This document shows, in pieces, positions 34,582 through 41,141 of a stretch of DNA of 64,000 nt (positions are counted from its first letter, which is position 1; every line of letters starts with the position of its first letter). The position numbers were made by a program, and so were the translations under genes. The notes below the pieces were generated by a model. It had not been told where the DNA came from, did not search any database, and saw only the letters and a list, made by a program, of their open reading frames with translations. Origin of the DNA: Caldilineaceae bacterium SB0664_bin_27 (GTDB taxonomy: Bacteria; Chloroflexota; Anaerolineae; Caldilineales; Caldilineaceae); contig VXRG01000137.1 in assembly GCA_009838625.1 (NCBI GenBank), positions 1 to 64,000 on the forward strand. Reading direction: 5' to 3'.

Positions 34582-34971
34582 TCACCCTCCTACTTGGGCC
34601 GTCTGTCGCACCATCCACTCCAGGTAGTTCTTGCGAGACATGCCGCGTCGCTTGGATTCCGAATCGATAAACTCTGCTACTCCAGCACCCAGCGTGATAT
34701 TCAGCCTCACACTTGGCTTGTCGGGCGCGGAGCGGACCAATACGATGGACGTAAGGGCGCAGCCTTCTGGAACCTCTACTTCTTCCAAAGTGCTGGGCGG
34801 AACCAGCTCCTGTCCATCTCGCTCCATTTCTATGGCATAGTCCTGAAGTACCGCGGCCCCGTTCAGGATCACTTCATCCAAAGTCTCACCCATAGCCGCA
34901 ATGCCCTCAATATCGGGGAACACGATACCGTACGCGCCGCGTTCACCGTCTATTAGCGCTGTATATCTCAT
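34582..34971 (-). CDS. HicB-family protein (antitoxin-like), no adjacent HicA
   Basis: YTALIDGERGAYGIVFPDIEGIAAMGETLDEVILNGAAVLQDYA HicB-like N-term; Arc/MetJ-like C-term SVRLNITLGAGVAEFID. Confidence 0.75.
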   Translation of the reverse strand: MRYTALIDGERGAYGIVFPDIEGIAAMGETLDEVILNGAAVLQDYAIEMERDGQELVPPSTLEEVEVPEGCALTSIVLVRSAPDKPSVRLNITLGAGVAEFIDSESKRRGMSRKNYLEWMVRQTAQVGG

Positions 34972-36292: not shown

Positions 36293-36320
36293 TTGACAGG
36301 GAATGTCCATTCGTTATATT
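36293..36320 (+). promoter_or_regulatory. sigma70-type promoter TTGACA-16-TATATT
   Basis: ttgaca 36293-36298, 16-nt spacer, tatatt 36315-36320; next in-frame ATG with signal peptide at 36422. Confidence 0.65.
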
Positions 36321-36421: not shown

Positions 36422-39400
36422 ATGTTCAAACGTTCATCAGCATCAGACAGTCTTCACAGGCGCACCCTGCTTCTGCCGGTCGCCGCGGCCTTCGTCCTGC
36501 TTTTCTGGCCTGCTCAGATCTTCGCCCACGGAACCCTGATTCCCCCCTGGTCCGACTATACACAGGAAGACGGCCTGGCCTCCAACAACGTTCTGGCCGT
36601 CACGGTGGGCGAGGGGGAAGTCTGGTTCGGGACCGACCACGGCATCAGCCGCTACAACGGCGCCTGGAGTTCGTGGACGGATGGCGCCGATCTGCAAGGC
36701 GGTGTGTATAGCTTGACTCTCGGAGAAACCAGCTCAGATCTCTGGGCTGGCACGGCAACCGGCGCTGTCCTCGCCTGGGAAGGAAGCTCCTGGGATATTC
36801 TCACGCGGCTGGATTCTCCGGTGAGGGCACTCCACTACACGGGTGGCCAACTCTGGATCGGAACGGCTTCCGGCCTCTACCTTTGGAATGTTGACGCGCC
36901 GTCACGCGTTTCCGGGCTGGACGAAGCATATATCAACGTGATCGGCAGCTCGAACGGCGGAGACAGTATCTGGGTCGGAACGTCCGACGGGCTCTGGCTC
37001 AGGCAGGACGGCCGCTGGAGCGCTATTGGCGAAGCGGAAGGGCTGCCCGCAAGGGAGGTTACCGCCCTGTGGGCTGATGCCGACGGATCGGTGTGGGTGG
37101 CCGCAGACGGCAACATCGTCTGGCGGGATCCCTCCACAGGAGACTGGACACAGGTAGAGACCGACCCTCTGCATGCCCGTGAACGCGTGCGCATTACTTC
37201 GCTGGCCGGCGATGGGTCCGGCAATGTCTGGGTCGGTACGGAAGGCGGCGGATTCTTTCGCCTCGTGGAACGTGAGGTCGAACCCTCGACAACGCCGCAA
37301 TACACTTTGATCCCACAGTCGATAAACAGCGGGGAAACTTCCTTCATCCATGCTGTCGCGGTCGACCAGGCCGGCTCTCTCTGGCTGGGTACCGTTTCCG
37401 GCGTCTTCCGTTCGGACAGGGAGATTTGGGGGCGGGAGATTCATCCCCCGGCTTCAAGCCCTGCCAACGAGATTCAGGCGATGCTTGCCGATGAAGAGGG
37501 CCGCCTCTGGATCGGCACACGAGGTGAAGGGATCCGCCGTAAAGCCGCCGGCAACGGCCTCGCCGATGAGGCGTTTTTCGACGTGGAAAGCGGTCTCCCC
37601 AGTCTCTTTGTCACAGATCTCGCCATCGACGCGTCGGGCCGTATCTGGGCCGGTACATGGTGGGGCCTTGCTTCATTGGAACCCGGCGCGGAACTGTGGA
37701 CACAGCCCATTCCTCCGGAAACGCTCCCTTCAGCTCTGGTGACTAAAGTTTTGGCCCGGGAGCGTCAGCTTTGGATAGGCACCGACAACGGCTTGGCGCG
37801 TTACGATCTTGACACCGGCGTTCTGTCAGTTGAGGAGGCCCTGACCCAACAGGTCGTCCAGGATCTGGCGCTTGACGCCTCAGGCCGACTGTGGGCAGCT
37901 ACCGAGAGCGGGGGGATATTCGTCGGCGAACCCGATGGCGGATGGACCAGGTATCAGGCCAGCTCGGAGGCGGGTAAGTCGATCTTCGGTGACAATGTCG
38001 CCGCACTGGTCTCCGACCCGAAGGTACCCGGCGCCATGTGGGCAGCGGTCAACCGTCACGGCCTGATCTATTTTGACGGCCAGGTCTGGCGCGATCGCAC
38101 GGCCGCCGCTCGTCTTCCGAGCAAGCTTTTCTACGACCTGTACGTCGACCCGGTCGACGCCTCTCTGTGGATCGGCAGTGAGGGCGGCGTCACCCGTTAT
38201 GACGGCCGCACATGGGAAACGCTCATTGTCGAATCGGTCCTGCCTGCCGCGTCCATCTCTTCAATCGTTCGCTCACCCAGCGGGATCTACTGGTTCGGCA
38301 GCAGAGAAGGGCTGACATTCCATCGCCCGGATTCTGTGCCCCCTTGGATCAGGATCGGGGACGTCTCTGGCCAGGCCGTACTGACTTCTGCAAATGAATG
38401 GAAGGTGGAATCCGAAGGCAATATCATCATTGGTTATGAAGCTGGCGATCTCTATACGCCTCAATCTGAACTCGTCGTCCTCTACCGGCTGAGTCCTCCC
38501 GGAGAACTCGGCCAGTGGCAGCTCCTGGACCGGCCCTTTCTGGAGTTGTCCGACTTTACCGAAAAGGGCCAGTACACGCTCGAGTTTCAGGTGCGGGATT
38601 TCGCCTTCACCTATTCCGCAATTAGCAGCGTTTCCTTTGAAGCAGAACCGCTGCCCGCGCAGATGCGGCTCCCTCTGCTGGGGTCGATCCGCACAGACTA
38701 TCTCATTACACTCATCGTCACCGGCCTGCTGGCGCTTATCGGCTTCGGCTACATGGGTATAGAGGTCATTCAGACCCGCCGCCGGGCACTGGACGCCGTA
38801 GTCCGCTCCTTCAATCCATTCATCAGCGGCGAGCCTGTGCGGCGAGAGGACATGTTCTTCGGCAGAAGGGAGATGCTGCAGAAGATCGTGGATACATTGC
38901 ACAACAACAGCATCATGATTCACGGCGAACGCCGGATCGGCAAGACGACCCTGCTCTATCAGCTGAACAACCATCTTTGGGGCCTGGAGGATGAGGAGTA
39001 CTGGTTTGTGCCGCTATACGTCGACCTCGAGGGCACTGAGGAGGATACATTCTTCCATTTCCTGATGGAGGAGATCCTGCACACGTCTTCTACGCTGTCC
39101 GGGCTTACGCCTGAGACGAAAGATGCCCTCCAGGACCTTCTTTACTACCGCCCTGGACACGAACAGTACACCGACAGAGAGTTCATCAGAGATCTGCGTG
39201 ACGTGATCAAGGCACTGCAGCATTTCGGTGAAGAGAGTCATCCTGGCAAGCACCTGCGCTTGATCCTTCTGATGGACGAAATGGACGTCTTCAACGCCTA
39301 CGATCACCTGATGCAGCAACGGCTGCGGCGAATCTTCATGCGTGACTTTGCGGCTACGCTCGGAGCGGTTATTGCCGGCATCCGAATCAGCAAGGAGTGG

Positions 39401-39718
39401 GGTCGAATCGAGAGCCCCTGGTACAATCTGTTTAATGAGATCGAACTGGAGCCATTTACCCGCGAGCAGGCAATGCAGCTGCTCACCGAGCCGGTACGAG
39501 GCTTTTACCGCTATGAACCGGGGGTCGTGGACTTCATTATCGAGAACTGTGCCGGGCGCCCCTTTCGCATTCAACAGTACGGCCTTGAGGCGGTCGGGCG
39601 CATGCTCGCTGACGGGCGGCGCACGATTACGATGGCAGACGCCGTTTTCGCCCATGGGCACATTCAGCAGATGGGTGATACCATCAATATTGGACTGAGT
39701 GAAGACAAAGACTCTTAG
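36422..39718 (+). CDS. HTCS-like sensor fused to P-loop ATPase: Reg_prop beta-propeller, Y_Y_Y-like domain, TM helix, STAND/AAA ATPase
   Basis: Signal peptide LHRRTLLLPVAAAFVLLFWPAQIFA; many LxxDxxGxxWIGTxxG repeats; TM TDYLITLIVTGLLALIGFGYMGIEV; Walker A GERRIGKTT; Walker B LRLILLMDEMD. Confidence 0.85.
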   Translation: MFKRSSASDSLHRRTLLLPVAAAFVLLFWPAQIFAHGTLIPPWSDYTQEDGLASNNVLAVTVGEGEVWFGTDHGISRYNGAWSSWTDGADLQGGVYSLTLGETSSDLWAGTATGAVLAWEGSSWDILTRLDSPVRALHYTGGQLWIGTASGLYLWNVDAPSRVSGLDEAYINVIGSSNGGDSIWVGTSDGLWLRQDGRWSAIGEAEGLPAREVTALWADADGSVWVAADGNIVWRDPSTGDWTQVETDPLHARERVRITSLAGDGSGNVWVGTEGGGFFRLVEREVEPSTTPQYTLIPQSINSGETSFIHAVAVDQAGSLWLGTVSGVFRSDREIWGREIHPPASSPANEIQAMLADEEGRLWIGTRGEGIRRKAAGNGLADEAFFDVESGLPSLFVTDLAIDASGRIWAGTWWGLASLEPGAELWTQPIPPETLPSALVTKVLARERQLWIGTDNGLARYDLDTGVLSVEEALTQQVVQDLALDASGRLWAATESGGIFVGEPDGGWTRYQASSEAGKSIFGDNVAALVSDPKVPGAMWAAVNRHGLIYFDGQVWRDRTAAARLPSKLFYDLYVDPVDASLWIGSEGGVTRYDGRTWETLIVESVLPAASISSIVRSPSGIYWFGSREGLTFHRPDSVPPWIRIGDVSGQAVLTSANEWKVESEGNIIIGYEAGDLYTPQSELVVLYRLSPPGELGQWQLLDRPFLELSDFTEKGQYTLEFQVRDFAFTYSAISSVSFEAEPLPAQMRLPLLGSIRTDYLITLIVTGLLALIGFGYMGIEVIQTRRRALDAVVRSFNPFISGEPVRREDMFFGRREMLQKIVDTLHNNSIMIHGERRIGKTTLLYQLNNHLWGLEDEEYWFVPLYVDLEGTEEDTFFHFLMEEILHTSSTLSGLTPETKDALQDLLYYRPGHEQYTDREFIRDLRDVIKALQHFGEESHPGKHLRLILLMDEMDVFNAYDHLMQQRLRRIFMRDFAATLGAVIAGIRISKEWGRIESPWYNLFNEIELEPFTREQAMQLLTEPVRGFYRYEPGVVDFIIENCAGRPFRIQQYGLEAVGRMLADGRRTITMADAVFAHGHIQQMGDTINIGLSEDKDS

Positions 39719-39803: not shown

Positions 39804-41141
39804 ATGCGTAATCCTTACACAGTTGGCCGCTGGCTGCGCGGGCCCGACCACTATGGCCGGGAGCAGCTGCTCGAATACCTGATTAACGCCGAGGACCCAG
39901 CCATCTGGGTGGTTGGCACGCGTCGGATGGGCAAGACTTCGATGCTGCGACAGCTTGAATGGCTGCTGACCAGACAGGAAGGCGCCAGCGCAGTTCCTCT
40001 GTTTTGGGATCTGCAAGGAAGTGAAACCAAGGACGATTTCGACTACGAGCTGTTTCTTGCAGTCGAAGACGAGATGCCTAGGTTTCAGGCCTACGGAGTC
40101 GATGTAAGCGCTCTTTACAATCAGGATGCGATTCAAATCCTGCGTGCTTTGCAACGTGCTCTTAGAGCCCATGGCAAGCATCTGCTCCTTCTCATCGACG
40201 AGGCTGAAGCCTGGATCAGTCTGGCCAAAAATGACTACCAAGCCTTGGCGCGGCTACGCAAAGCCTTCCAGAATGGTGGCATGCGCACAATAATGACGTC
40301 GACAAAGTTGCTGATGCAACTGAACGACCTGACCCGAAACTGGCTCACAAGCCCTTTTCTCTTTGGTTTCACACTTGTGAACTTGTGGAACCTCGAACCC
40401 GAGGCAAGCGTTAGCCTGGTGTTGCAGGAACAGAGTAACACGCCAGTCAACGTCGAGAGGGAACGCATCGACGATATTCTGCGGCACTCGCACCGCCATC
40501 CCTACCTGGTGCAGACGCTCTGTTACCGCCTGTTTGAAGAAAAGCAAGGAAGAGGTTCTTTGCGGGATATTGGCGAGGAGGACTTGAGGGCCGACCATCT
40601 GCTCGCCGGGTTTTTCGAGGTTGACTTCAAGTGTCTCGCCCCAACCGAAAGGCAGATACTGTTGACCGTTGCCCGCCAGGGCGTCATCAGCGAAGAGGAG
40701 CTGGTGGCCAAGACCGACAACGAATCAATCGATCAGATCTCCATGTATGTGCATGGCATGAACAATCTCGGTTACCTGCAGAGGGTCTACAGCCGGGCGG
40801 AAGGTAATGCAGCCGCCTCCTCCCACGATGGATTCCCGCGCTGGACAATCGGCAACGAGTTTCTGCGCCGCTGGATGCTGGAAAACTACCAGGAGCTGGC
40901 CCAGACCCTCTACTCCGACGTGAGCGATTACGGGGTCGAAGCTCTGCTCGAAATGGGGCGCAAGGTTGAACTGGACTACCTGCAACACGAGATCCCGGAA
41001 CTGCAAGGGCGCCTGGAGTCGTTACTGACAGCATACAGCGGACATTCGGATCAAACGCCGCCGGAAGTTCTGCAGGAGATTCAGGAACTGCGCAGGGAGT
41101 TGGAGAAAGCAAGCTCTCAGCTACGTAATGTGGCTGAATAG
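39804..41141 (+). CDS. soluble STAND/AAA-like P-loop ATPase with winged-helix-like and coiled-coil C-terminus
   Basis: Walker A GTRRMGKTS; Walker B HLLLLIDEAEAW; APTERQILLTVARQGVISEEELV; C-term LQEIQELRRELEKASSQL. Confidence 0.8.
   Translation: MRNPYTVGRWLRGPDHYGREQLLEYLINAEDPAIWVVGTRRMGKTSMLRQLEWLLTRQEGASAVPLFWDLQGSETKDDFDYELFLAVEDEMPRFQAYGVDVSALYNQDAIQILRALQRALRAHGKHLLLLIDEAEAWISLAKNDYQALARLRKAFQNGGMRTIMTSTKLLMQLNDLTRNWLTSPFLFGFTLVNLWNLEPEASVSLVLQEQSNTPVNVERERIDDILRHSHRHPYLVQTLCYRLFEEKQGRGSLRDIGEEDLRADHLLAGFFEVDFKCLAPTERQILLTVARQGVISEEELVAKTDNESIDQISMYVHGMNNLGYLQRVYSRAEGNAAASSHDGFPRWTIGNEFLRRWMLENYQELAQTLYSDVSDYGVEALLEMGRKVELDYLQHEIPELQGRLESLLTAYSGHSDQTPPEVLQEIQELRRELEKASSQLRNVAE

Follow-up and report, generated by a model that had tools for sequence, protein, structure and literature searches.

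A membrane propeller sensor with a STAND ATPase half and its conserved partner ATPase in Caldilineaceae: a probable two-protein relay

Domain organization of P0001

We analyzed a 64,000-nucleotide stretch of DNA (the window; positions 1 to 64,000 of contig VXRG01000137.1) from Caldilineaceae bacterium SB0664_bin_27, a member of the Chloroflexota, in which two adjacent genes code for homologous P-loop ATPases assigned to the STAND class. The first gene, P0001 (36422..39718, + strand), is a single open reading frame of 1098 amino acids with a propeller sensor like those of hybrid two-component systems (HTCS), a transmembrane (TM) helix, and a STAND ATPase domain. The second, P0002 (39804..41141, + strand; 445 amino acids), codes for an ATPase followed by a winged helix and a helical hairpin; it starts 85 bp 3' of P0001 on the same strand and was overlooked in an earlier, sequence-only reading of P0001. 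P0001-type and P0002-type proteins are referred to below as ATP1 and ATP2, respectively.

Hydropathy analysis gave two hydrophobic segments in P0001, residues 15–35 and 758–780, and no others. The first is the hydrophobic core of a signal peptide (36464..36526, +; helix 18–28 in the AlphaFold model), and the second is the sole TM helix (38693..38761, +; model helix 758–775), in agreement with what had been read from the sequence before. Residues 40–640 (36539..38341, +) contain Reg_prop repeats (109 bits, E 5.9e-33 in Pfam, with seven stretches passing at a relaxed cut-off) that are predicted, based on Pfam, the AlphaFold model and a fold match, to form two seven-bladed propellers; the repeat type had thus been recognized correctly, but there are 14 repeats when counted by eye, not roughly a dozen. 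A Y_Y_Y-like immunoglobulin (Ig) domain, defined by model strands and by alignment to 4a2m, occupies residues 641–757 (38342..38692, +). The Pfam Y_Y_Y model produced no match on P0001 itself, and fired on 5 of 42 wider homologues. The AlphaFold model of P0001 has a mean pLDDT of 79.6, mostly above 85 in the ectodomain, and the ectodomain model aligned with the periplasmic domain of the HTCS protein BT4663 (4a2m) over 785 columns (E 6.1e-40) that span both the propellers and the Y_Y_Y-like region. The earlier calls of an HTCS-like extracellular sensor and of a Y_Y_Y-like segment are therefore upheld. Matches of P0001 to PorZ and glycosylhydrolase models of NCBIfam were rejected, as the propeller repeats give rise to them and their scores fall far short of the cut-off. 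A Pfam search of P0001 revealed no HisKA, HATPase, receiver, or AraC domain at E ≤ 1, and no kinase, receiver or HATPase domain even at E ≤ 10, as expected from the reported lack of a visible HisKA/HATPase module.

The cytoplasmic half of P0001 is a STAND/Orc-clade ATPase domain (residues 798–1082; 38813..39667, +), delimited by alignment and profile matches, in which alignment and motif checks located an intact Walker A motif, GERRIGKT (residues 835–842; 38924..38947, +), and an intact Walker B motif, LILLMDE (residues 947–953; 39260..39280, +). R838, G840, K841, T842, D952, and E953 are invariant across 19 diverged full-length homologues. Single-sequence matches to Pfam AAA_16, ATPase_2 and nSTAND models were below the curated cut-offs, as were those to NCBIfam, and a phmmer search of the ATPase half against the PDB returned chance-level matches only, so that a family profile was needed. 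This profile matched the P0002-type domain with 99.95% probability and the archaeal structure 2qen at 1.5e-4. The STAND/Orc assignment, which bears out the earlier proposal of a STAND-type P-loop ATPase in the cytoplasmic half, is thus made because of profile and fold evidence, and not because of single-sequence Pfam matches. Two motifs that reportedly help to define STAND ATPases were also compared: the hhGRE-type motif before Walker A reads MFFGRRE in P0001 and HYGREQ in P0002, and the late G-x-P motif reads GRPFRIQQ in P0001 and HRHPYLVQ in P0002, which lacks the G of GxP. Confidence in the P0001 model is low to moderate over the ATPase part. The stretch behind this ATPase is too short for a winged helix; neither a winged helix nor an effector domain follows it. 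The ATPase is the most conserved part of P0001, beyond chance: mean identity to P0001 over 18 homologues from other genera and families was 65% in the ATPase, 40% in the propeller region, and 39% in the Y_Y_Y-like domain.

Distribution of the propeller–ATPase fusion

The full-length fusion of propeller and ATPase was present in all 17 genus genomes searched, at 68–100% identity, and three of these (G004, G012, and G016) are single-contig assemblies. This rules out an assembly error joining two separate genes, which had been named earlier as a finding that would overturn the reading. Another 16 genomes, which belong to other genera of the family or to further families within the class, hold full-length or nearly full-length fusions. 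Scanning 84,980 species genomes yielded 78 loci with the P0001 ATPase, which beyond Chloroflexota occurs in Acidobacteriota, Gammaproteobacteria (Pseudomonadota), Calditrichota, SAR324, Bacteroidota, and Desulfosarcina; in a separate survey of Bacteroidota, the family was rare (1 of 297 genomes at E ≤ 1e-25). Since plasmid and phage searches found no copies, the pair is not obviously mobile.

The partner ATPase P0002

The ATPase domain of P0002 (39804..40538, +) was detected by Pfam (AAA_22, 1.2e-9) and in the AlphaFold model, and carries a Walker A motif, GTRRMGKT, and a Walker B motif, LLLLIDE. It is homologous to the ATPase of P0001 (26% identity, E 3e-12; profile–profile probability 99.95%). 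The model places a winged helix at residues 265–355 (40596..40868, +), and the P0002 family profile, which matched 2fna at 4.7e-12, 2qen at 1.5e-7, and PH0952 (6mfv) at 6e-5, covers 2fna residues 13–338. The closest folds to the P0002 model (pLDDT 86.9) were 2qen, the G10 NLR (a plant resistosome), Cdc6/Orc, 2fna, and CED-4, with MalT ranking lower. Together, the model and the profile identify P0002 as a predicted STAND/Orc-clade ATPase with a winged helix after the ATPase. A modeled helical hairpin (40956..41138, +) lies at the C-terminus. Related hairpins in other Anaerolineae are fused to CHAT (L287, L291, L294, L267), SIR2 (L285), and NB-ARC (L289) domains, which suggests that the P0002 hairpin may be an adaptor.

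The Walker A and B motifs of P0001 and P0002 are all intact, and are conserved in four family alignments. In the wider family, Walker A was intact in 33 of 34 ATP1 and 33 of 33 ATP2 proteins. The Walker B regular expression missed many ATP2s, in whose alignment the D and E are invariant columns, as are the G and K.

Conservation of the ATP1–ATP2 pair

In a first sample of 20 loci with clustered ATP1, the window included, ATP2 was found beside ATP1 at 19; at the sole exception, L041 (same contig as L083), the partner was revealed by a six-frame scan. One of the 78 loci from the species-wide scan is on a contig that ends at ATP1. Among the 77 assessable loci, ATP2 lies immediately 3' of ATP1 on the same strand in 65, nearly always within 130 bp, and the two genes of relatives often touch or overlap. 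At five more loci, all from Gammaproteobacteria, ATP2 is located ~2 kb upstream on the opposite strand, so that the genes diverge. A contrast set was provided by soluble proteins of ~1080 amino acids with a related ATPase that the same search had returned (L063–L066 and L068–L070, some with short flanks): since just one of the seven has such a neighbor, neighboring STAND genes are not a general rule.

Sensor and effector domains across the family

Pfam domains were tallied in 42 ATP1 and 40 ATP2 proteins that do not belong to the window family, with one fused protein, from L253, counted in both sets. The sensor domains of ATP1 were TPR, usually with TM segments (17 proteins match TPR_2), Reg_prop (7), Y_Y_Y (5), GAF arrays, a receiver (REC) domain with GAFs, periplasmic-binding domains (Peripla_BP, 2), and LRR. 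The effector domains of ATP2 were Ser/Thr kinase (Pkinase, 11), OmpR-type Trans_reg_C (5), extracytoplasmic function (ECF) sigma (2), TIR (2), CHAT, LuxR-type helix-turn-helix (GerE), SIR2, and HEPN. Judging from these matches, sensor domains sit on ATP1 and effector domains on ATP2, in a clean separation. The fused protein, from Saprospiraceae (L253:2856-7289, − strand; 1478 amino acids), is a natural fusion with the order LRR–ATP1–ATP2–TIR in one chain.

Several individual proteins and loci are described here. The L253 fusion has an NLR-like composition with two ATPases, and adjoins an unfused pair of the type REC-GAF-ATP1 / ATP2-TIR. An acidobacterial protein of 952 amino acids (L110:10540-13395, +) combines a STAND ATPase, a winged helix, a Ser/Thr kinase, and an ECF sigma domain; the ATP2 of L120 (946 amino acids) is in the same size class. 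In an Anaerolineales pair (L143:5438-13269, +), a GAF array with nine passing stretches precedes ATP1, and a CHAT protease stands behind ATP2. In the gammaproteobacterial ATP2s of L119, L122, L123, and L127, whose genes run divergently from ATP1, the STAND ATPase lies between an OmpR-type DNA-binding domain at the N-terminus (checked in L123) and TM helices at the C-terminus, which gives a CadC-like layout. Finally, about eight STAND genes follow one another on 20 kb of an Anaerolineales contig (L239), a mixture of TM-anchored and soluble types.

A proposed relay and its alternatives

We consider it probable that P0001 and P0002 work as a relay of two STAND proteins, in which a sensor ATPase passes a signal to an effector ATPase. 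This reading draws on the architecture, the conserved pairing, the division of sensors and effectors, the natural fusion, and the intact Walker motifs on both sides, all of which were read from sequence; beyond these, we infer a physical ATP1–ATP2 complex and ATP-driven switching, together with the ligand class, the target, and the output. P0001 would be a single-pass membrane receptor for an extracytoplasmic ligand, which its double propeller and Y_Y_Y-like domain would bind and which is most likely a glycan or a fragment of the envelope. Ligand binding would alter a P0001 dimer or oligomer, and the change would cross the TM helix to the cytoplasmic STAND ATPase, which would switch its nucleotide state and/or oligomerize. 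The active ATPase would then engage the homologous ATPase of P0002 as a hetero-complex. P0002 would be the output half, acting through its winged helix or its adaptor-like hairpin; because the protein ends in these two elements, it is likely to act by binding DNA or by recruiting another protein, and its most plausible target would be the linked envelope and glycan genes. Elsewhere among bacteria, this pair comes with different sensors on ATP1 and different effectors on ATP2.

Since P0002 homologues carry effector domains, the ATPase of P0001 is probably not the final output; P0001 would be the sensor half of a pair completed by P0002. The sequence-only reading had treated this ATPase as the output domain of a receptor that couples transmembrane ligand sensing to a STAND switch. 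The ATPase itself, and the succession of sensor, TM helix, and ATPase, stand; the role as final output probably does not, and the scheme was incomplete in that it lacked the partner.

The evolution of the two ATPases also speaks for the relay, with two cautions. When 85 ATPase domains were placed in a maximum-likelihood tree, ATP1 separated from ATP2 with 99/91 support, each side reaching across phyla, but the labels had been assigned according to the higher-scoring hidden Markov model (HMM), and the split is therefore partly built in. Independent of these labels are gene order, domain content, and the L253 fusion; in the tree, one of the fused ATPases fell in the ATP1 group and the other in the ATP2 group, beside those of the neighboring unfused pair. 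Pairwise divergences of ATP1 and ATP2 were strongly correlated (Mantel r 0.90, against a permutation maximum of 0.34), although shared species history would by itself raise this value too. Several observations count against the relay. Seven Anaerolineae loci (L105, L107, L109, L111, L112, L113, and L115) have a propeller-ATP1 without an adjacent ATP2, with two of the seven contigs ending within 1 kb, and ATP1 of this group may work alone or with a distant partner. P0002 has no recognizable enzymatic effector, and when the window genome was searched at E ≤ 0.01, neither a second copy of its hairpin nor a hairpin-effector protein came up. Lastly, the gene context varies between genera: in the window genus, the pair lacks the adjacent GT2 and DegT genes seen elsewhere.

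The main rival to the relay is a role in immunity or cell death, in which the propeller would detect an invader at the cell surface and the STAND pair would deploy a killing effector in trans via the P0002 hairpin. TIR, CHAT, SIR2, and HEPN domains on the ATP2s of relatives are consistent with such a device, as are the fusions of P0002-type hairpins to CHAT, SIR2, and NB-ARC, and STAND pairs are predicted conflict systems (PMC8195603). We nevertheless find this role unlikely: the pair is kept at one genus locus among metabolic and envelope genes, it was absent from the plasmids and phages searched, and kinases and transcription regulators are the commonest outputs in the wider family, while the window genome lacks a hairpin-effector at the threshold given above, and PADLOC matches are weak. 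Homology of the two ATPases and the Anaerolineae group with an unaccompanied ATP1 would also fit a scheme in which P0001 acts by itself, its ATPase being the output (for example, as a ligand-gated chaperone or assembly factor on neighboring glycan enzymes) and P0002 a tandem duplicate with a separate role. Against this stand the pair order conserved across phyla, the ATP1–ATP2 fusion, and the complementarity of sensors and effectors, and the related soluble proteins mostly lack such a neighbor, which makes independent action of P0001 quite improbable. The HTCS-type ectodomain, in turn, might belong to a degenerate or unusual hybrid two-component system in which an ATPase replaced the kinase and signaling terminates elsewhere, at a separate kinase or regulator. 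We regard this as very improbable, as HATPase, HisKA, REC, and AraC domains were found neither in P0001 nor in the neighbors examined, and the ATP1 ATPase occurs behind many unrelated sensors.

The relay may have a broader significance. STAND proteins such as NLRs, Apaf-1, and MalT normally combine sensor, switch, and effector in one cytosolic chain. Here, two co-inherited ATPases appear to share out sensing and output, and the one that senses can be a membrane receptor with an HTCS-type ectodomain. Such an arrangement would connect the outside of the cell with kinases, sigma factors, DNA-binding domains, or death effectors and would need no histidine phosphotransfer; it points to a way, so far little known, of carrying external signals into cells. 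Whether the pairs constitute a general bacterial signaling class parallel to two-component systems, with a swappable sensor-ATPase, in many cases a membrane receptor, and a swappable effector-ATPase that are co-inherited and an ATPase–ATPase assembly in place of phosphotransfer, is a more tentative proposition, to which we give slightly less than an even chance. The natural combinations of sensors and effectors offer a test set for how STAND switches communicate.

Comparison with known systems

The nearest precedent for a STAND pair is the nSTAND2 two-gene operon, in which two adjacent STAND NTPase genes are predicted to form a hetero-multimer (Kaur, Iyer, Burroughs, Aravind 2021, eLife, PMC8195603, Fig. 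6C), and the partner with eroded NTP-binding motifs is the one bearing the effector, mostly GT4 or HEPN (PMC8195603). P0001 and P0002 are likewise two adjacent STAND genes of a family with a variable effector on one partner, and the ATP2s of the distant pairs L221, L222, and L228 match nSTAND2 strongly (down to 5.8e-71), with nSTAND2 matches also on L241 and L252. Unlike in the nSTAND2 operon, Walker A is intact on both partners of the present family, the sensing partner is a membrane receptor, and kinases and transcription factors predominate among the outputs. P0001 and P0002 themselves have no nSTAND2 (PF20702) match at E ≤ 1; P0002 lacks GT4 and HEPN, and the 40 ATP2s include one HEPN_Swt1 and no listed GT4. 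The pair may thus be a variant on the known STAND-pair idea, with a wider class behind it. No earlier description of a propeller–STAND pair was found in a literature search outside subscription papers, and one may exist.

P0001 shares its extracellular double propeller, Y_Y_Y-like domain and TM helix with the Bacteroides HTCS proteins BT4663, BT3049, and BT4673, of the receptor kind by which gut bacteria sense sugars, the BT4663 type also having 14 repeats, but in place of a histidine kinase, receiver, and AraC output it has a STAND ATPase and a partner gene. The ATPase and winged-helix fold of P0002 resembles that of archaeal STAND ATPases (SSO1545/2fna, PABY2304/2qen, and PH0952/6mfv) and of MalT, CED-4, and NLRs; those are single proteins, whereas here sensing and output are split, and one ATPase is anchored in the membrane and bears an extracellular sensor. 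MoxR-vWA-iSTAND/VMAP ternary conflict systems are multi-gene systems of AAA+/STAND modules with variable effectors (Kaur 2020, PMC7159879). The present system has these same features, but comprises two core genes only, with no MoxR-like or vWA gene among the neighbors examined. A comparison with models of the anti-phage Avs/AVAST systems gave, for P0001, a match to Avs5 (0.018, 11 bits), confined to one short P-loop stretch, and no Avs match for P0002.

Genomic context and minor features

A σ70-like promoter match, TTGACA-16-TATATT (36293..36320, +), lies 5' of P0001; it agrees with the consensus at 11 of 12 positions and is a consensus match only; chance by itself would give ~1.6 matches of 9/12 or better in this region. 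The list of open reading frames gives an alternative upstream start of P0001, a TTG at 36293. Because this TTG is the first triplet of the promoter-like match, the ATG at 36422 is favored as the start.

In the window genus, the genes 3' of the pair code for UbiE, a methyltransferase, and a class A penicillin-binding protein, which from inspection of its sequence, and not from a family search, we take to be PBP1A; GcvT is also among the neighbors. Outside the genus, a DegT/DnrJ/EryC1/StrS aminotransferase and a GT2 glycosyltransferase often lie 3' of propeller-type pairs, with a Gfo/Idh-like protein also among the neighbors. By association, these genes point to envelope or glycan biology. A multi-TM protein of ~950 amino acids with an ILEI domain (L038:1784-4633, +, and relatives) recurs upstream of the pair in Chloroflexota. 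At five of the Anaerolineae loci that lack an adjacent ATP2 (L105, L107, L109, L111, and L113), the propeller-TM-ATP1 gene is followed by one for a protein of ~225–240 amino acids with about 4–5 TM segments, the sequence having been read in L107, L111, and L113 and the size alone taken for L105 and L109. In the window itself, a HicB-like antitoxin (PF15919, 7.6e-14) is encoded at 34582-34971 on the − strand.

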